Shown here: piece by piece, positions 38,340 through 46,955 of the stretch
How positions within the stretch are numbered: the stretch's first letter is position 1
How the letters are laid out: each line of letters begins with the position of its first letter
DNA from: Chryseobacterium arthrosphaerae
Lineage (GTDB): Bacteria; Bacteroidota; Bacteroidia; Flavobacteriales; Weeksellaceae
Direction of reading: 5' to 3'
Assembly: GCF_001684965.1 (NCBI RefSeq)
Contig: NZ_MAYG01000001.1
Span: 248,001-312,000 of the forward strand
Length of the DNA stretch: 64,000 nucleotides
The notes under the pieces: generated by a model
Told to the model about the DNA's origin: nothing
The model's input: the letters and a program-made list of their open reading frames with translations, nothing else
The model's database searches: none
Position numbers and translations under genes: made by a program

Positions 38340-38642
38340 GGTTTTAGATTTTTGAATTTGAGGAGGCGAGTTTGTGAGTGAGAGGGCTTGAGAGTAGGAG
38401 AGTAAGAAGTAAGAGCGTTTGAGGGTTGAAGAATAAAGAGGACTGGATTTCGGGGTGTAGTGTGGGGTGCTAACTTCTAACTTCCCGCCCATCATTTCTA
38501 ATTTCCAGCTTCTAATTTCTCATTAAACACTCACAAATCACTAATTTTGCAGAATACAGAATCATTTATCAATTATCATTCATCAATTATAAACTCCCAT
38601 GCTCTCCAACTCTTCAACTCTCCCACACTCAGACTCTCCAAC
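38340..38642. repeat. Polypurine and polypyrimidine degenerate repeat tracts
   Basis: 38355-38440 is almost pure purine with GAGAG/GAAG units; 38465-38525 and 38594-38642 are pyrimidine-rich (TTCTAATTTCCAGCTTCTAA, CTCTCCAACTCTTCAACTC). The first tract resembles the reverse complement of the last. The last tract encodes the first residues of FolP. Similar TTCCAGCTTC units occur at 51747-51780. A promoter element for folP lies at 38542-38549. Confidence 0.6.
38542..38549 (+). promoter_or_regulatory. -7 promoter element of folP
   Basis: TAATTTTG, an exact TAnnTTTG match, 49 nt before ATG 38599. Confidence 0.6.
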
Positions 38643-39465
38643 CTATTCAATCAACTGCAATGGCCGCCTGGTACAGCTAGACACTCCAAAGATCATGGGA
38701 ATTCTCAACCTTACTCCCGATTCTTTCTCTGACGGCGGAAAATTCAATAATGAAAATGCGGCATTGAAGCAGACCGAAAAACTTCTGAAAGATGGAGCTG
38801 AAATCATTGATATCGGTCCGCAGTCTACACGCCCCCATGCCAAATTTCTCAGCAGTGAAGAAGAAATAAACAGGATTGGAAATGTCATTTCCGGAATCAA
38901 AAAAGAATTTCCGGAAGCGTTGATATCGCTGGATACTTTTTATGCTGCTACTGTCAGGTTTGGGTTCAGTGAAGGAATCGATATCGTTAATGATATTTCA
39001 GGGGGGCAGTATGATACGGAAATGTTTGATACAGTGGCGGAAACAAAGCTTCCCTATATCCTTATGCACATCAATCCGTCTTATGAAACCATGCATGAGA
39101 AGATAAAATTTGAAGACATTACGCTGGAGGTCAATCGTTACTTTTCCGGGAAGGTGAATCTGCTTCGGGAAAAAGGAGTCAAAGACATTATTCTTGACCC
39201 CGGTTTCGGCTTTGGAAAAACCGTAGAAGACCAGATGAAAATGATCAGTGAAGTGGAATACCTTGGATTTGGAAGATTACCTTTACTCATAGGGATTTCA
39301 AGAAAATCATTTATCTATAAACCGCTTGGGAAATCACCGCTGGATATCAATGAAGAAACCCAGAAACTTCACCTGAAAGTATTGGAACAGGGAGCTAAAA
39401 TTTTAAGAGTTCATGACGTCGCTGAAGCAAAGGAAACACTTACTCACTTTTTGTTAAAAAAATAA
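38599..39465 (+). CDS. folP: Dihydropteroate synthase
   Basis: 288 residues. Condenses p-aminobenzoate with hydroxymethyl-dihydropterin diphosphate in folate synthesis; sulfonamide target. The TIM barrel has MGILNLTPDSFSDGGKF near residue 33, DIGPQSTRPHA near 74, DTFYAATVRF near 113, NDISGG near 130 and LDPGFGFGKT near 195. The first 17 residues (Ser/Pro-rich, MLSNSSTLPHSDSPTY) come from a pyrimidine-rich repeat tract and are probably a recent non-conserved extension; the family core begins at INCNGR. The next in-frame ATG would remove a core strand. Confidence 0.95.
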   Translation: MLSNSSTLPHSDSPTYSINCNGRLVQLDTPKIMGILNLTPDSFSDGGKFNNENAALKQTEKLLKDGAEIIDIGPQSTRPHAKFLSSEEEINRIGNVISGIKKEFPEALISLDTFYAATVRFGFSEGIDIVNDISGGQYDTEMFDTVAETKLPYILMHINPSYETMHEKIKFEDITLEVNRYFSGKVNLLREKGVKDIILDPGFGFGKTVEDQMKMISEVEYLGFGRLPLLIGISRKSFIYKPLGKSPLDINEETQKLHLKVLEQGAKILRVHDVAEAKETLTHFLLKK

Positions 39466-39503
39466 AAAGTGTTAAAAAAACTTGTGAGTAATTAAAAAGT
39501 TTA

Positions 39504-39511
39504 TACATTTG
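39504..39511 (+). promoter_or_regulatory. Promoter of the ilv operon (-7 element)
   Basis: TACATTTG (TAnnTTTG) with a TTG at 39482-39484, 19 bp upstream, the spacing expected of the main Bacteroidota sigma factor. It ends 5 nt before the ATG of leader peptide 1, so the mRNA may begin at or next to the start codon. Confidence 0.8.
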
Positions 39512-39515
39512 CAAC

Positions 39516-39599
39516 ATGAATTTTACGAATCAGAAAAATATTATTGTCATTTCTATTGCAGCTGTTGTCATTTACAACAGTAAGGAAACGGCATTTTAA
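39516..39599 (+). CDS. Ile/Val-rich leader peptide 1 of the ilv operon
   Basis: A 27-residue frame whose residues 9-19 read IIVISIAAVVI (eight of eleven are Ile or Val), ending ...NSKETAF before TAA. It lies between the operon promoter and a strong terminator. Its 3' part contains GAAACGGC (39585-39592), complementary to the 5' arm of the terminator, and GCTGTT (39561-39566), which can pair with AACGGC (39587-39592). These are the segments 1, 2 and 3 of classical attenuation: a ribosome waiting at Ile/Val codons would free segment 2 to pair with segment 3 and allow read-through. Confidence 0.85.
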   Translation: MNFTNQKNIIVISIAAVVIYNSKETAF

Positions 39600-39627
39600 A
39601 AATAGATTTTTAATTTAAATTATATAT

Positions 39628-39658
39628 AAGCCGTTTCATTTTTGAAGCGGCTTTTTTT
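39628..39658 (+). terminator. Attenuator terminator 1 of the ilv operon
   Basis: 11-bp stem AAGCCGTTTCA / TGAAGCGGCTT (one G-U) with loop TTTT, followed by seven T residues. Its GCCGTTTC (39630-39637) pairs perfectly (8 bp) with GAAACGGC in leader 1, the competing antiterminator. Confidence 0.9.
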
Positions 39659-39662
39659 AATT

Positions 39663-39670
39663 TTTATTTG
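39663..39670 (+). promoter_or_regulatory. Possible second promoter before leader peptide 2
   Basis: TTTATTTG differs from TAnnTTTG at one position. TTTG at 39641-39644, inside terminator 1, is 18 bp upstream. It ends 8 nt before ATG 39679. If active, transcription could start after attenuator 1. Confidence 0.35.
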
Positions 39671-39678
39671 TACAGCAT

Positions 39679-39735
39679 ATGTATCAGTTATTAGCAGTAA
39701 TTATTATCGTCATTATTATTCCCTTGCGTCTGTGA
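39679..39735 (+). CDS. Leu/Ile/Val-rich leader peptide 2 of the ilv operon
   Basis: An 18-residue frame, MYQLLAVIIIVIIIPLRL, ending in TGA. Twelve of 18 residues are Leu, Ile or Val, the three amino acids made from this pathway. The last codon and stop lie in CTGTGAGAAGG (39730-39740), which pairs at 10 of 11 positions with CCCTCTCACAG (39768-39778) in the following terminator. A ribosome that reaches the stop would cover this antiterminator strand; one held at Leu or Ile codons would leave it free. Confidence 0.85.
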   Translation: MYQLLAVIIIVIIIPLRL

Positions 39736-39765
39736 GAAGGAAAGTGTATGACTGTACATATATTG

Positions 39766-39797
39766 AGCCCTCTCACAGCGTGAGAGGGCTTTTTTTA
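39766..39797 (+). terminator. Attenuator terminator 2 of the ilv operon
   Basis: Stem AGCCCTCTCAC / GTGAGAGGGCT with loop AGC and a T8 tract, 34 nt before the ilvE start codon. With leader 2 it forms a second complete attenuator. Confidence 0.92.
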
Positions 39798-39830
39798 TTC
39801 CCATTTATTAAATTTTAACCCCCATATAAC

Positions 39831-40703
39831 ATGTATTACAACGACGACACGATCATCTATTTTGACGGAAACTTTATGAAAGCAAAAGAAGCGGGAACTG
39901 ATCTTTACGGGCAGTCACTCCACTACGGATACTCTGTGTTTGAAGGCATTAAATCCTACCGCACAGAAAACGGAACAGCAATCTTTAAAGCAAAAGAACA
40001 TTATGAAAGACTCAAAAGATCAGCAGAACTGATGCATATCCCTTTCGATTACTCCGTAGAACAGCTTACAGAACTTACGTATGAGCTTTTGGAACGAAAC
40101 GGATTCACAGATGCCTATATCCGACCGTTGGTGACCTGCTCCCCGAATATGTCTCTGTCAAAAGGAAAACAGTCTTATCTCTCCCTGTTGGCCTGGGAAT
40201 GGAATAACGGATATCTCGCCGATAAAATGAAGATCATGACTTCAGACTTTCAGCGGCCCAACCCTAAAGCCTTCAAGGTAGAAGCCAAAGTAGGCGGGCA
40301 CTATGTCAATTCCATTCTGGCTTGTCAGGATGCTAAAGATAAAGGATATGACGAAGCCCTTGTTCTGGATGAAAACGGAAATGTAGCTGAAAGTTCGGGA
40401 GCCAATGTATTCTACGAAAAAGACGGAATGCTGTTTACCCCTGCAAAAGGAAGCATTCTTCCCGGAATCACGAGGCAGACGGTCTTTGAGATCTGTAACG
40501 AGCTGAGTATTCCAGTAAAAGAAGAGTTCTTTTCACCGGAAGAAATGAGAGGGGCCGATGCAGGATTTTTCTGCGGAACAGCCGCTGAGATCGTTGCCCT
40601 GGATTCTCTTGATGATGTTCCTTTTACCAAAAACTGGGATGATACCGCAAGTGCTCTTGTACAGCAGGCTTATCAGAAAAGAGTAAGAGTTTTGTCATTG
40701 TAA
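39831..40703 (+). CDS. ilvE: Branched-chain amino acid aminotransferase
   Basis: 290 residues, class IV PLP-dependent aminotransferase. Makes Ile, Val and Leu from their 2-oxo acids with glutamate. Visible: QSLHYGYSVFEGIKSYRTENG near residue 27, the PLP lysine in VEAKVGGHYVNSILA near 150, and EALVLDENGNVAESSGANVFY near 175. First gene of the ilv operon, directly behind the tandem attenuators. A 167-bp gap to ilvD contains a TAGTTTTG (40812-40819) that might be an internal promoter. Confidence 0.95.
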   Translation: MYYNDDTIIYFDGNFMKAKEAGTDLYGQSLHYGYSVFEGIKSYRTENGTAIFKAKEHYERLKRSAELMHIPFDYSVEQLTELTYELLERNGFTDAYIRPLVTCSPNMSLSKGKQSYLSLLAWEWNNGYLADKMKIMTSDFQRPNPKAFKVEAKVGGHYVNSILACQDAKDKGYDEALVLDENGNVAESSGANVFYEKDGMLFTPAKGSILPGITRQTVFEICNELSIPVKEEFFSPEEMRGADAGFFCGTAAEIVALDSLDDVPFTKNWDDTASALVQQAYQKRVRVLSL

Positions 40704-40870
40704 ATTTTAAAAATTTAAACAATTGATTTTCAATTAAATAAATCTGTTTTTCAAACGGTTGGATATTGTAGTTTTCGGGAAATTTGAAAATGATAAAAAT
40801 ATAACAAGCTGTAGTTTTGGGTCGGAATTAAGCAAAGACTTCATTATAAAAACAGGATAAAGAAAAGCAA

Positions 40871-42562
40871 ATGCAGGATAATATGTTAAATAAATATTCA
40901 AAAACATTTACACAGAACAGCGAACAGCCCGCCGCAAAAGCCATGTTATACGGGATAGGTTTTACAGAAGAAGATATGCATAAAGCCCAGGTCGGAATTG
41001 CAAGCATGGGCTATGACGGGAATACCTGTAATATGCATCTTAACGATCTGGCAAAAATGGTCAAAAAAGGAACCTGGAGTCATGGCCTGGCCGGATTGAT
41101 ATTCAATACAATCGGTGTAAGTGACGGGATGAGCAACGGGACAGAAGGAATGCGCTATTCTTTAGTAAGCCGTGATGTGATCGCCGACAGCATTGAAGCG
41201 ATCTGCGGAGCACAATACTACGACGGTCTTATCGCACTGCCGGGATGTGACAAAAATATGCCGGGAACCATTATGGCCATGGGAAGACTGAACAGACCTT
41301 CCATCATGGTATATGGCGGAACCATTGCTCCGGGATGCTATAAAGGAGAACAGCTCAATATTGTTTCTGCTTTTGAAGCTTTAGGTAAAAAAATCGCGGG
41401 CGAGATTTCTGAGGAAGATTTTGATGGCGTTGTAAAAAATTCATGCCCGGGTGCAGGAGCCTGTGGCGGAATGTACACTGCCAATACAATGGCTTCAGCA
41501 ATAGAAGCGTTGGGGATGAGTCTGCCATATTCCTCTTCCAATCCTGCTTTAAGCAAAGAAAAACAGGAAGAATGCCATGAAGCAGGAAAATACTTGAAAA
41601 TATTATTGGAAAAAGATATCAAACCCTCCGATATCATGACCCGTAAAGCTTTTGAAAATGCATTACGGCTGATTGTAATCCTCGGAGGAAGTACCAATGC
41701 TGTCCTGCATTTTATAGCGATGGCTAAAAGTGTAGGAGTACAGGTTACCCAGGATGATTTTCAAAAGATGAGCGACTGTACACCGGTTCTGGCAGATCTT
41801 AAACCCAGCGGAAAATACCTGATGCAGGACCTTCATGAGCATGGTGGAACCCCTGCGGTGATGAAATACCTTTTACAGGAAGGACTTCTGCACGGTGAAT
41901 GCCTTACAGTGACAGGAAAAACATTGGCAGAAAATCTGGAAAATGTTCCGGATCTGGATTTCAATACGCAGAAAATTATAAAACCTCTTTCAGAGCCGGT
42001 AAAAGAGACCGGACATTTGAGAATACTGTATGGCAATCTTGCCGAAAAAGGAAGTGTAGCTAAAATTACAGGGAAAGAAGGAGAACGTTTTGCCGGAAAA
42101 GCCCGGGTATTTGACGGCGAGAAAAATCTCATCAGGGGAATTCAGGATGGAACCGTACAGAAAGGTGACGTCATTGTCATCCGCAATGAAGGCCCGAAAG
42201 GAGCTCCGGGAATGCCGGAAATGCTGAAACCTACCAGCGCTTTGATAGGAGCAGGGCTGGGAAGCAGTGTTGCCCTGATCACAGATGGCCGGTTCAGTGG
42301 AGGAACCCATGGCTTCGTAGTGGGACATATCAGCCCTGAAGCTTATGAAGGAGGCTTGATTGCTTTTGTAGAAAATGATGACCTTATCGAAATAGATGCT
42401 GTCAACAATACCATACAGCTTAAAGTTTCAGAAGAAGAAATCAAAAAACGAAAACAGGGCTGGCAAAAACCTTCACTGAAAGTACAGAAAGGATTACTCT
42501 ATAAATATGCATTAACCGTATCATCAGCTGCTGAAGGCTGTGTAACGGATGAAATCTCATAA
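40871..42562 (+). CDS. ilvD: Dihydroxy-acid dehydratase
   Basis: 563 residues. Dehydrates dihydroxy-isovalerate and dihydroxy-methylvalerate, the third step of Val and Ile synthesis. Iron-sulfur ligands are visible: GNTCNMH near residue 50, PGCDKNMPG near 121 and [18 protein letters not shown] near 192. The [30 protein letters not shown] segment is the conserved C-terminal signature. An alternative start is the ATG at 40883. Overlaps ilvB by 14 bp. Confidence 0.96.
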
Positions 42563-44297
42563 TCACAATATCATGGAGCATTTAAACAGATCTAATGAAA
42601 CAGAACTTAGCGGAAGCCGGATCATTCTGGAAGCTTTTATTCAGGAAGGTGTAAAAACGGTTTTCGGGTATCCGGGAGGAGCCATCATTCCCATTTATGA
42701 TGCATTGTATGACTATAAGGAGCAGCTGGAACATATTCTGGTCCGCCATGAGCAGGCAGCAGTACACGCTGCACAAGGACTTGCGAGAGTTTCGGGCGAA
42801 GTAGGCGTTGTACTGGCAACCAGCGGGCCGGGAGCAACCAATCTGGTAACAGGTCTTGCAGATGCCTTACTGGACAATACCCCTTTGGTATGCATCACAG
42901 GTCAGGTCTTTGAGCACCTTTTGGGTACCGATGCCTTTCAGGAGATTGATGTGATGAATATTACAAGCCCTGTCACCAAATGGAATTACCAGGTTACAGA
43001 TGCCCATGAGCTTCCCGAAGTGCTGGCAAAAGCGTTCTACATTGCAAAATCAGGACGTCCGGGACCTGTGCTTATTGATGTTACCAAAAATGCCCAGTTA
43101 CAGCATATTCTGTTCAGAGGATATTCCCCATGCTACTCATTAAGGAGCTATAATCCCGATCCCAAACCTGATATGGAAAATATCGAAAAAGCCGCCGCTC
43201 TGATTAATTATGCAGAGAAACCTTTTGTGATTGCCGGACAGGGAATTATGCTGGGAAAAGCAGAAAAAGAGTTTTTGAATTTTGCCGAGAAATCAGGAAT
43301 TCCGGTTGCCTGGACGGTTTTAGGAATGAGTGCCATTCCTACCGGTCATCCGCAAGCCGTAGGAATGGTAGGAATGCATGGAAATTACGGACCGAATGTT
43401 CTTACCAATGAATGTGATGTCCTGATTGCTGTCGGGATGCGCTTTGATGACAGGGTGACAGGAAAGCTGGACCAGTATGCGAAGCAGGCAAAAATCGTTC
43501 ACCTGGATATTGACAGGGCAGAGATTGATAAAAACGTAAAGGCAGATATTCCGGTACTGGGAAACTGTAAAGAAACGCTTCCGCTCCTTACGGATTTGAT
43601 TGAGAAAAGAGATCACTCCGGATGGCATAAGAAGTTTACCTACTGTTTCGAAATTGAAGACAGCACGCTCATCAGGAAAGAATTATATCCGCTGGAAGGA
43701 GAAATTACAATGGGTGAAGTGATCCGGCGCCTTAATGATATCACAGACGGGGAAGCCGTGATTGTAACGGATGTAGGCCAGCACCAGATGGCTACCTGCA
43801 GGTATTCAAGCTTCAAACATTCCCGAACCAATGTGACAAGCGGCGGATTAGGTACAATGGGATTCTGTCTTCCGGCAGCAATAGGAGCCTCGTATGCGGA
43901 AACCGGCCGTAAAGTGATTGCTGTAATGGGTGATGGAGGAGCGCAGATGAATATACAGGAGCTGGGAACCATTATGCAGTACCGTCCCGATGTTAAGATC
44001 TTGATTCTCAACAATTGTTATCTGGGCATGGTAAGGCAATGGCAGGAACTGTTCCACGAGGAAAGATATTCGTCTGTAGATATTCAGAGTCCGGATTTTG
44101 TACAGGTAGCTAAAGGATATGGAATTGAAGGATGCAGGGTATCCGAACGGGAAGATCTTGACACTGCCCTGCACAGAATGCTGGATCATAAAGGAGCTTT
44201 TCTTCTTGAGGTGATGACCGGAAAAGAGCATAATGTATTTCCCATGATCCCACAGGGGAAAAGTGTTTCAGAGATTGTGCTGAATAATAAATTGTAA
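42549..44297 (+). CDS. ilvB: Acetolactate synthase, large subunit
   Basis: 582 residues; ThDP-dependent enzyme forming acetolactate or acetohydroxybutyrate, the first common step. The N-terminal domain has [17 protein letters not shown] and the catalytic Glu in [16 protein letters not shown]; the C-terminal domain has the ThDP/Mg motif [17 protein letters not shown] ending in [12 protein letters not shown]. Start at 42549 overlaps ilvD; ATG 42573 (MEHLNRSN) is an equally plausible start. Works with ilvN downstream. Confidence 0.95.
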
Positions 44298-44308: not shown

Positions 44309-44590
44309 ATGAGAACAGAACATAAAGAATATACCATTACGGCTTATACAGAAGACTATCTAGGACTGATCAGCAGGATCAATGCCATTTTTTCAAGAAG
44401 AAGAATTTCCATGGTGACCTTTAATGTGGGACCTTCTGAAACGGAACGTGTGAAAAAATTTGTCATCGTGATCCGGGAAACGGAAGAATCGGTACAGAAA
44501 ATTACCAGACAAATGGAAAAACAGGTGGATGTACTGGAAGTGCATTATCATAAAAATCCATATTTCACGGCAATAGAGTTTGCCAACTAA
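44309..44590 (+). CDS. ilvN: Acetolactate synthase, small (regulatory) subunit
   Basis: 93 residues, essentially one ACT domain: YTITAYTEDYLGLISRINAIFSRRRISMVTFNVGPSE. This is shorter than the usual 160-residue IlvH and like Escherichia coli IlvN (96 residues). It regulates IlvB, usually giving valine feedback inhibition. 11 nt after ilvB. Confidence 0.9.
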   Translation: MRTEHKEYTITAYTEDYLGLISRINAIFSRRRISMVTFNVGPSETERVKKFVIVIRETEESVQKITRQMEKQVDVLEVHYHKNPYFTAIEFAN

Positions 44591-44633: not shown

Positions 44634-45680
44634 ATGGCAAAATTGAATTTTGGAGGAGTAGAGGAAAACGTAGTAACAAGAGAAGAATTTCCATTAAAAA
44701 AAGCACAGGAAGTATTAAAAGATGAGGTGGTAGCTGTGATCGGCTATGGAGTACAGGGACCAGGGCAGGCACTGAATCAGAAAGATAACGGGATCAATGT
44801 CATTGTAGGGCAGAGAAAAAATTCAAAATCGTGGGACAAGGCTGTAGCAGACGGGTTTGTACCAGGCGAAACCCTGTTTGAAATTGAAGAGGCCCTGCAG
44901 AAAGGAACCATTATCTGCTACCTTTTGAGTGATGCTGCGCAGATCGAATACTGGCCAAAGGTAAAACAGCATCTTACCCCGGGGAAAGCACTGTATTTTT
45001 CCCACGGTTTCGGAATAACCTTTAACGAACGTACGGGGATTGTACCTCCGGCAGATGTGGATGTATTTCTGGTAGCACCTAAAGGATCAGGAACCTCACT
45101 GAGGAGAATGTTTCTTCAGAACAGAGGGCTGAACAGCAGTTTTGCCGTATATCAGGATGCTACAGGTAAAGCCAGGGACAGGGTAACTGCATTGGGAATA
45201 GCCATTGGAAGCGGTTATCTGTTTGAAACGGATTTTAAAAAAGAAGTATACAGTGATCTTGCAGGGGAAAGAGGAACCCTGATGGGCGCTGTACAGGGAA
45301 TATTTGCTGCACAATATGATGTTTTGAGGAAAAACGGCCACAGCCCGTCCGAAGCCTTTAACGAAACCGTAGAAGAACTTACCCAATCATTAATGCCGCT
45401 AGTGGCTGAAAACGGTATGGACTGGATGTATGCCAACTGCAGTACAACCGCACAAAGAGGCGCCCTGGACTGGTGGAAACGCTTCAGAGATGCTACTTCT
45501 CCTTTATTTGAAGAACTGTATGATAATGTGGCAAAAGGGAATGAAGCCCAACGTTCTATCGACAGCAACAGCAAACCTGATTACAGAGAAAAGCTGGAAG
45601 CTGAACTGACAGAGCTGAGAGAAAGCGAAATGTGGAAAGCAGGAAAAACCGTACGAAGCCTCAGACCGGAAAACAATTAA
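44634..45680 (+). CDS. ilvC: Ketol-acid reductoisomerase (class I)
   Basis: 348 residues, class I length. Converts acetolactate to dihydroxy-isovalerate with NAD(P)H. Rossmann motif AVIGYGVQGPGQALNQKD near residue 35; the cofactor loop is VGQRKNSKSWDKA near 61; metal-binding region DLAGERGTLMGAVQGIFAAQYD near 206 and the C-terminal knotted domain follow. GYGVQGPGQ instead of GYGSQGHAQ is a sequence variant of note. Confidence 0.95.
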   Translation: MAKLNFGGVEENVVTREEFPLKKAQEVLKDEVVAVIGYGVQGPGQALNQKDNGINVIVGQRKNSKSWDKAVADGFVPGETLFEIEEALQKGTIICYLLSDAAQIEYWPKVKQHLTPGKALYFSHGFGITFNERTGIVPPADVDVFLVAPKGSGTSLRRMFLQNRGLNSSFAVYQDATGKARDRVTALGIAIGSGYLFETDFKKEVYSDLAGERGTLMGAVQGIFAAQYDVLRKNGHSPSEAFNETVEELTQSLMPLVAENGMDWMYANCSTTAQRGALDWWKRFRDATSPLFEELYDNVAKGNEAQRSIDSNSKPDYREKLEAELTELRESEMWKAGKTVRSLRPENN

Positions 45681-45692
45681 TATCCCTGGAAA

Positions 45693-46955
45693 ATGATGAA
45701 AGAAGAAATAGGCTCTTCTGTACTGGAAGAGGTCTGTAAAGCTGAGGAAAGACTTAAAAATGTTGTTGTTAAAACACCTTTAGCCGTCAACAATAATCTT
45801 TCGGCTGTTTACGGAGCCAACATAAGCTTTAAAAGAGAAGATCTTCAGCAGGTAAGATCATACAAAATCAGAGGTGCTTATAATAAAATGGCAACGATGT
45901 CTCCGGAAAGCCTTGCGAAAGGAGTGGTTTGTGCAAGTGCAGGAAATCACGCCCAGGGAGTAGCTTTTGCATGCAGCAGGATGAAAGTGAATGGAACGAT
46001 TTTCATGCCTTTGCCTACTCCCGGGCAGAAGCTGGAACAGGTAAAGATGTTCGGAGGAAGCTATATTGATGTAGTGCTGTATGGAGATACCTTTGATGAA
46101 GCAAAAAATGCCGCATTGAGGTTTTGTGATCAGCATGACGGAGTATTCATTCATCCGTTTGACGATCCTGCGATCATTGCAGGTCAGGCAACGGTAGGAA
46201 TGGAAATCCTTGAACAGTCGGATGAACCTGTAGATTTTCTTTTTGTTCCCGTTGGAGGCGGAGGATTAGCGGCCGGAGTCTGTTCTGTGTTTGAAAAGCT
46301 TTCTCCGCACACCAAAATCATAGGAGTGGAACCATCAGCGGCGGCAAGTATGAAAAAAGCCATGGAAAAAGGCAAGCCCGTTCTTCTTGAAAAAATAAGC
46401 AGGTTTGTAGATGGTGCGGCAGTTCAGCAGGTGGGTGCCATCACTTTTGAACTGTGTAAGAATGCCTTATTTGATATGGTGACCGTAGATGAAGGCCTGG
46501 TATGCGAAACGATCTTATCGCTTTACAACAAAGATGCCATTGTAGCAGAGCCTGCGGGAGCACTCTCAGTAGCCGCTTTGGAAAAGTACAGAGACGAGAT
46601 AAAAGGTAAAAATGTAGTATGCATCATCAGTGGAAGCAATAATGATATCACCCGTATGGAAGAAATCAAGGAAAAAGCTTTGCTGTATGCCGGCCTGAAG
46701 CATTATTTCCTGGTCAGATTTCCCCAGCGTCCCGGTGCGCTGAAAACTTTTGTGATGGAAGTGCTGGGGCCCGATGATGACATTACGTATTTTGAGTACA
46801 CCCAAAAAAACTCAAAAGAAAAGGGAATTGCTGTGGTAGGAATTGCATTGAAACAGAACAGAGATTTCAGTCCGTTGATCAGTAAAATGAAACAATATGA
46901 TTTTTTTGTCAATTACCTGAACAATGATCCGTCTCTGATGAACCTGCTTATTTAG
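45693..46955 (+). CDS. ilvA: Threonine ammonia-lyase (threonine dehydratase)
   Basis: 420 residues; makes 2-oxobutyrate from threonine, the first committed Ile step. PLP lysine in VRSYKIRGAYNKM near residue 56; the glycine loop VPVGGGGLAAGV near 190; serine-containing VCIISGSNNDI near 309. A single ACT-like regulatory domain from about 340 (YFLVRFPQRPGALKTFVMEVLGPDDDITYFEY), half the regulatory region of Escherichia coli IlvA. Last gene of the operon. Confidence 0.95.
   Translation: MMKEEIGSSVLEEVCKAEERLKNVVVKTPLAVNNNLSAVYGANISFKREDLQQVRSYKIRGAYNKMATMSPESLAKGVVCASAGNHAQGVAFACSRMKVNGTIFMPLPTPGQKLEQVKMFGGSYIDVVLYGDTFDEAKNAALRFCDQHDGVFIHPFDDPAIIAGQATVGMEILEQSDEPVDFLFVPVGGGGLAAGVCSVFEKLSPHTKIIGVEPSAAASMKKAMEKGKPVLLEKISRFVDGAAVQQVGAITFELCKNALFDMVTVDEGLVCETILSLYNKDAIVAEPAGALSVAALEKYRDEIKGKNVVCIISGSNNDITRMEEIKEKALLYAGLKHYFLVRFPQRPGALKTFVMEVLGPDDDITYFEYTQKNSKEKGIAVVGIALKQNRDFSPLISKMKQYDFFVNYLNNDPSLMNLLI

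Follow-up and report, generated by a model that had tools for sequence, protein, structure and literature searches.

Two putative leader-peptide attenuators in series upstream of the ilv operon of Chryseobacterium

The region upstream of ilvE in Chryseobacterium arthrosphaerae raises the question of why one operon is preceded by two short, isoleucine- and valine-rich reading frames, each followed by a hairpin and a T tract. The region lies within the 64,000-nucleotide stretch of DNA that we analysed, referred to here as the window, between folP, which ends at position 39465, and ilvE, which starts at position 39831. It contains, in this order, a -7 box, leader 1, terminator T1, leader 2, and terminator T2 (Table 1). 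We propose, with a probability of roughly 0.8, that these elements form two ribosome-mediated transcription attenuators in series on one ilv transcript. The leaders of the original prediction are confirmed in their coordinates and reading, and both terminator hairpins are present, each followed by seven T. The antiterminator strand of unit 1, GAAACGGC, pairs at 8 of 8 positions with the T1 arm GCCGTTTC (39630-39637), and that of unit 2, CTGTGAGAAGG, at 10 of 11 positions with the T2 arm CCCTCTCACAG (39768-39778); the recomputed values are identical to those reported before. Folding of the leader region, a check put forward with the prediction, gave -80 kcal/mol versus a shuffle mean of -55.5 kcal/mol (z -5.2), and none of 100 dinucleotide shuffles was as stable. 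A scan of positions 38500-41000 against Rfam produced seven matches with E up to 1, all far below the gathering scores, and the region thus matches neither the T-box nor another Rfam cis-regulator at gathering score.

Table 1. Features of the ilv leader region and the downstream operon in the window
Feature	Position	Strand	Remarks
TACATTTG, match to the Bacteroidota -7 box (TAnnTTTG)	39504-39511	+	sole candidate leader promoter; 4 nt 5' of the leader-1 ATG
Leader peptide 1, MNFTNQKNIIVISIAAVVIYNSKETAF	39516-39599	+	ATG 39516, TAA 39597-39599; Ile/Val core conserved
Hairpin H1 (GCTGTTGT / ACAACAGT)	39561-39581	+	within leader 1; covariation and shuffle tests
Antiterminator strand of unit 1, GAAACGGC	39585-39592	+	overlaps the 3' part of leader 1; pairs 8/8 with 39630-39637
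Intrinsic terminator T1 and T tract	39628-39658	+	hairpin 39628-39653, then 7 T
Leader peptide 2, MYQLLAVIIIVIIIPLRL	39679-39735	+	ATG 39679, TGA 39733-39735
Candidate protector (1:2) hairpin P2, TCCCTTGC / GTGAG..GGA	39720-39741	+	encodes the PL codons
Antiterminator strand of unit 2, CTGTGAGAAGG	39730-39740	+	includes the leader-2 stop codon; pairs 10/11 with 39768-39778
Intrinsic terminator T2 and T tract	39765-39796	+	hairpin 39765-39791, then 7 T
ilvE, first gene of the controlled operon	39831-40703	+	TIGR01122 above cut-off
ilvD	40871-42562	+	TIGR00110 above cut-off
ilvB	42549-44297	+	TIGR00118 above cut-off
Short ORF in the ilvN position	44309-44590	+	without NCBIfam match at 1e-20
ilvC	44634-45680	+	TIGR00465 above cut-off
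ilvA	45693-46955	+	TIGR02079 above cut-off

Units were identified by two criteria. The leader criterion is a strong hairpin with a T tract, preceded by an ATG open reading frame that stops 6-90 nt upstream and has at least six Ile/Val in ten residues. The antiterminator criterion is a segment near the stop codon whose pairing with the 5' arm of the terminator exceeds that of 95% of dinucleotide shuffles. The ten-residue windows of leaders 1 and 2 contain seven and eight Ile/Val, respectively, and both units combine an intrinsic terminator with a mutually exclusive antiterminator. The window contains 103 terminator-like hairpins, 62 on the forward and 41 on the reverse strand, and only two have both a leader and an antiterminator; these are exactly the two reported units. 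The control DNA, which comprised the rest of the loci of 80 named relatives (994 kb), contains 448 such hairpins, five of which are preceded by a leader and none by a leader together with an antiterminator. The occurrence of two units is real and exceeds chance.

According to the proposed mechanism, a ribosome moving freely through the Ile/Val codons would reach the stop codon and cover the antiterminator strand, and the terminator would form. With charged Ile- or Val-tRNA scarce, the ribosome would be slowed, the strand would remain available for pairing with the 5' arm of the terminator, and transcription would continue. Since RNA polymerase must pass both terminators, read-through would be the product of two probabilities. 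With two independent terminators in series, the log-sensitivities would add, the leak would fall, and the response to Ile and Val would be steeper. Ribosome occupancy and termination are what we infer from the sequence and conservation of the parts, and the multiplicative response is arithmetic on that mechanism.

Each antiterminator strand was paired with its own terminator and with that of the other unit in 83 distinct tandem loci. The own terminator is preferred over both swapped pairings in 74 loci for unit 1 and in 71 for unit 2, with median energies of -14.3 and -13.9 kcal/mol versus -5.8 and -9.3 kcal/mol for the swapped pairings. A swapped pairing is at least equal in nine (unit 1) and 12 (unit 2) of the 83 loci; these exceptions include Aequorivita and Flavobacterium LE19, whose units are almost the same and appear to be recently duplicated. 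Because the strands favour their own terminators, the two switches look largely independent.

Of 222 distinct units, 190 have an antiterminator pairing that exceeds 95% of shuffles, and 138 have one that exceeds 99%. Thirty-two units fail at the 5% level. Eight of these belong to the Chryseobacterium clade, most of them being the second unit of species whose leader ends in W, and a further 12 are long-tailed single units of the genus g11, which is probably Flavobacterium. The antiterminator sequences are unrelated between lineages (GAAACGGC, GTGAGAAGG, GTGATGAGTAATGG, GAGTGAGTCAGGC, GTTGATATAG, and others). The peptide sequences also diverge between lineages, and it is the Ile/Val richness, the position of the stop codon, and the antiterminator pairing that are kept. 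This pattern argues against the idea that the leaders are functional hydrophobic micro-proteins, or that the terminated RNAs act in trans, which we consider highly improbable even though the peptides are hydrophobic and 18-27 residues long, and discrete short RNAs would be expected.

Within the Chryseobacterium clade, the antiterminator sequences are too uniform to give strong covariation. For unit 1, equally good pairing was seen in 110 of 500 shuffles, and the covariation score was reached in 32; for unit 2, eight of ten pairs are invariant and two slid versions outscore the true structure on covariation. The alignment of related genomes that had been suggested with the prediction thus bears it out in that both Ile/Val peptides and both competing stems are kept in most of the Chryseobacterium loci examined, with the covariation of the antiterminators remaining weak. 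Some pairs of T1 and T2 have changed on both sides in the clade alignment. RNAalifold applied to the whole leader recovered T1, T2, and P2; it missed H1 and also the antiterminators, which compete with the terminators.

The original prediction placed a complete 1:2/2:3/3:4 switch in leader 1, with the segment GCTGTT as the protector of antiterminator 1. We set this assignment aside in favour of H1, a conserved and covarying hairpin of eight pairs in which GCTGTT lies and whose other strand is ACAACAGT directly downstream (39574-39581). In all 40 distinct regions tested, H1 is more stable than 95% of its shuffles (eight loci in which the anchor motif was not found were omitted), and its covariation score is above those of all 500 column shuffles. 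Changes on both sides occur in four of seven pairs, a number reached by 45 of 500 shuffles. As to the register, four of 34 rows are unpaired, and 81% of cells still pair when the strands are slid by three columns, versus 90% in the original position. GCTGTT is replaced by ATTGTT in many relatives. H1 adjoins but does not include the unit 1 antiterminator strand and is therefore taken as a probable pause or timing hairpin. A protector (1:2) strand belongs to the textbook attenuator scheme and is absent from some described attenuators. In unit 2, P2 is paired in 34 of 34 aligned sequences (272 of 272 cells), but is almost invariant and hence beyond covariation testing; in 16 of 41 distinct regions it is more stable than 95% of the shuffles. 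A further candidate, a lock on the start codon, was not retained: the start region of leader 2 (39674-39690) is complementary to the conserved spacer ACTGTACATAT (39750-39761), and this pairing reaches p <=0.05 in only 28 of 68 distinct last units and in five of 53 upstream units.

The composition of the leaders bears on which amino acids the units sense. The control zone of unit 1 contains on average 5.38 Ile, 2.87 Val, and 0.04 Leu codons (53 distinct leaders), and that of unit 2 contains 5.51 Ile, 2.14 Val, and 1.46 Leu codons (37 distinct leaders). Across 28 distinct 18-residue peptides, the leader-2 core (V)III(V)IIIPL hardly varies, and Leu is present at position 4 in 24 of them and at position 5 in only 16. 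The difference in Leu codons between the two zones and the frequent Leu4 are what would be expected of a true AND gate, in which the two checkpoints sense different amino acids: Ile and Val at unit 1 and, in addition, Leu at unit 2. The leaders of Aequorivita, which mix Ile and Val in unit 1 and contain Ile only in units 2 and 3, likewise fit checkpoints of differing specificity. The geometry of unit 2 does not. A ribosome covers 12-15 nt from the P site (PMC3641672), and stalls at codons starting at 39709-39718 would leave the unit 2 antiterminator mostly free and the first strand of P2 covered. Leu4 and Leu5 are too early for control, and a stall at either would leave both strands of P2 free, favouring termination. 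The PL codons are too far downstream, as a ribosome positioned on them would already cover the antiterminator strand. Because the Ile/Val codon content of both zones is similar, both units should respond mainly to Ile and also to Val. A true AND gate is thus unlikely, as is a Leu checkpoint, and the tuning of unit 2 to Leu that had been proposed is not upheld. Of the two parts of the earlier description of the locus as 'an AND or graded gate', the second agrees better with these data: a graded gate in series is favoured over an AND that combines different amino acids.

Control in series further requires that both units lie on one transcript. The Bacteroidota -7 box has the consensus TAnnTTTG (PMC9723704). 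This motif is located 4 nt before the leader-1 ATG in 96 of 104 tandem loci, in which genomes of the same species are counted separately; six of the remaining eight have TACCTTTA at that place, and two were assigned another ATG by the script. Neither the 104 tandem loci nor 74 distinct spacers (up to 200 nt) contain TAnnTTTG between the units, which argues for control in line and not in parallel. Judged by this promoter type, it is very improbable that two promoters each have an attenuator of their own, although TTTATTTG, before leader 2 in the window, is only one letter off the -7 box. The in-line arrangement thus has a single candidate promoter, and the short distance between its -7 box and the leader-1 ATG means that the start codon may be at the extreme 5' end of the RNA or outside it. 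Leader 1 is probably leaderless or nearly so. Of the F. psychrophilum mRNAs with mapped starts, 5.5% are leaderless (PMC9723704). The 4-nt spacing (39504-39518) suggests a leaderless or 5'-terminal start codon as a component of an attenuator.

The 80 named loci come from a single IlvE scan and are the closest matches to the IlvE of the window, so that close relatives are over-represented in the counts, and many of the genomes belong to the same species; further genomes were added separately. Spurious second units from the permissive table, such as the ends of upstream genes, were excluded from all counts. At least two units are present in 56 of the 80 named loci by the leader criterion, and in 46 when the antiterminator criterion is also demanded. 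Two units precede ilvE in 51 of the 55 named Chryseobacterium loci, and this count, together with the parts and the controls, supports the prediction of two complete in-line attenuators. The four exceptions are C. culicis, a locus whose upstream stretch is only 113 nt long, and two loci with one unit each, from C. takakiae and from an uncultured species. Five other named loci have at least two units: F. beibuense, Aequorivita xiaoshiensis with three, Flavobacterium LE19 with two and a third seen only with a looser leader score, Gelidibacter maritimus, and a Flavobacteriales bin. Among 82 further distinct Chryseobacterium loci, 58 have two units, 23 have one, and one, which is cut by a contig end, has none. 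Of 75 distinct genomes outside the genus (L204-L279), 43 have at least one unit and four have two by the leader criterion, one of the four passing both criteria; the stretch read was mostly that upstream of ilvD, so that these counts would not include a leader located ahead of an earlier gene. In one additional genome (G297), two terminators with Ile/Val-rich frames were seen by eye, and the contig end cuts the locus. The three units of Aequorivita (L098:2575-2963) precede ilvE, each with a leader and a terminator; the second and third are almost the same, as would be expected if they had been duplicated in tandem recently.

The two terminators differ in stability, with T1 at -13.2 to -18.1 kcal/mol and T2 at -15.8 to -22.8 kcal/mol in the 51 named Chryseobacterium tandem loci. 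The weaker T1, and the C. culicis loci (L049 and also L023) in which leader 1 is kept and terminator 1 fails the scan, could indicate that unit 2 works alone and that unit 1 is the relic of an older attenuator. We regard this as very unlikely, since the clade as a whole retains leader 1, terminator 1, and H1, in which both sides of pairs have changed. The stem defect in terminator 1 of L049 and L023 is a natural variant, which perhaps has one working checkpoint.

The distribution of the units was compared with a tree of IlvE that contains 78 of the 80 named loci and ten others; L083 and L092 were omitted as broken. The tandem Chryseobacterium loci form one starred group of 52 rows, which includes C. 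culicis and the cut-off locus. Its sisters are F. beibuense, with two units, and F. akiainvivens, with one, and a group of C. takakiae and Cloacibacterium, with one unit in the rows examined, is placed further out. Aequorivita together with Flavobacterium LE19, Gelidibacter, and the Flavobacteriales bin (L107) are located elsewhere. The scattered positions of the multi-unit loci suggest several gains or losses. The IlvE proteins of F. akiainvivens (L081) and F. beibuense (L082) are 76-77% identical to that of the window; this identity and the sister position hint at a transfer of the operon with its leader. In 44 of 148 Chryseobacterium genomes, the IlvE match is distant at best (E about 1e-14 to 1e-18), which may reflect loss of the ilv operon and auxotrophy for branched-chain amino acids.

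Single leaders with a terminator are present at other operons of the same genome, which was scanned for ATG open reading frames ending within 100 nt of a strong hairpin only. A His leader precedes hisG (MKPIFLALHHYHHHIC, L291:895-924) and a Trp leader precedes the presumed trpE (MSNNIWWWLSNSSSGLEGLSCY, L293 reversed 1178-1204), and the leader-peptide mechanism thus appears to be in use in this genome. No short ORF with a terminator was found upstream of the presumed leuA (best PF00682 match) or of two homoserine dehydrogenase genes. Among the six places scanned, stacking was seen only at ilv.

The attenuators of the enteric ilvGMEDA and ilvBN operons consist of an Ile/Val(/Leu)-rich leader, an antiterminator, and an intrinsic terminator, with one unit each. 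The Chryseobacterium region resembles them in placing a leader rich in branched-chain amino acids and a competing antiterminator and intrinsic terminator before genes for these amino acids, and differs in having units in series, two here and three in Aequorivita, in belonging to another phylum, and in its probably near-leaderless leader 1. These operons are listed in PMC1183508, the attenuation model of which, in the text available, treats sensitivity as a property of one leader, without mention of tandem or series arrangements. The closest described case that we found is Salmonella mgtCBR, where two leader ORFs in one mRNA leader respond independently and additively to ATP and proline, a case that the authors call singular in that its tandem attenuators sense different signals (PMC3641672, Lee and Groisman 2012). 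Unlike the ilv leaders, mgtCBR is described there as having two unlike signals and no structure resembling an intrinsic terminator, and the operon does not serve amino-acid biosynthesis. In tandem riboswitches, for example that of B. clausii metE, two sensors and two intrinsic terminators also stand in series, but those sensors are small-molecule aptamers that use neither leader peptides nor ribosomes (PMC3641672). The rimP-leader of some Gammaproteobacteria has a second terminator in tandem with a potential antiterminator; it concerns another gene and signal, and no amino-acid leader peptide is described in the available text (PMC2965389). Leader-peptide attenuators were predicted before amino-acid operons of F. 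psychrophilum, which belongs to the same order, and are of the same mechanism class; a tandem arrangement is not mentioned in the text available, and a word search of the main text did not find ilv (PMC9723704). For the phylum, the sources found contain predictions of leader-peptide attenuation only (PMC9723704, PMC7366714). Among the matches listed from the open-licence literature, which leaves subscription papers largely outside, and judged by title and opening of the abstract, we found no earlier description of serial leader-peptide attenuators of the same class on an amino-acid operon, in agreement with the statement in the original prediction that none was known.

Taken more widely, and tentatively, at somewhat less than even odds, flavobacteria may stack whole leader-peptide attenuators for the control of branched-chain amino acid synthesis, two in Chryseobacterium and three in Aequorivita. 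The units would have been gained and duplicated repeatedly, their number would set the steepness and the leak of the response, and downstream units in some lineages would have shifted towards sensing isoleucine alone. Relatives that naturally carry one, two, or three units before this operon would make it possible to test directly how stacking affects leak and steepness. If the reading is true, such stacking would be a compact, protein-free route to sharp amino-acid sensors.
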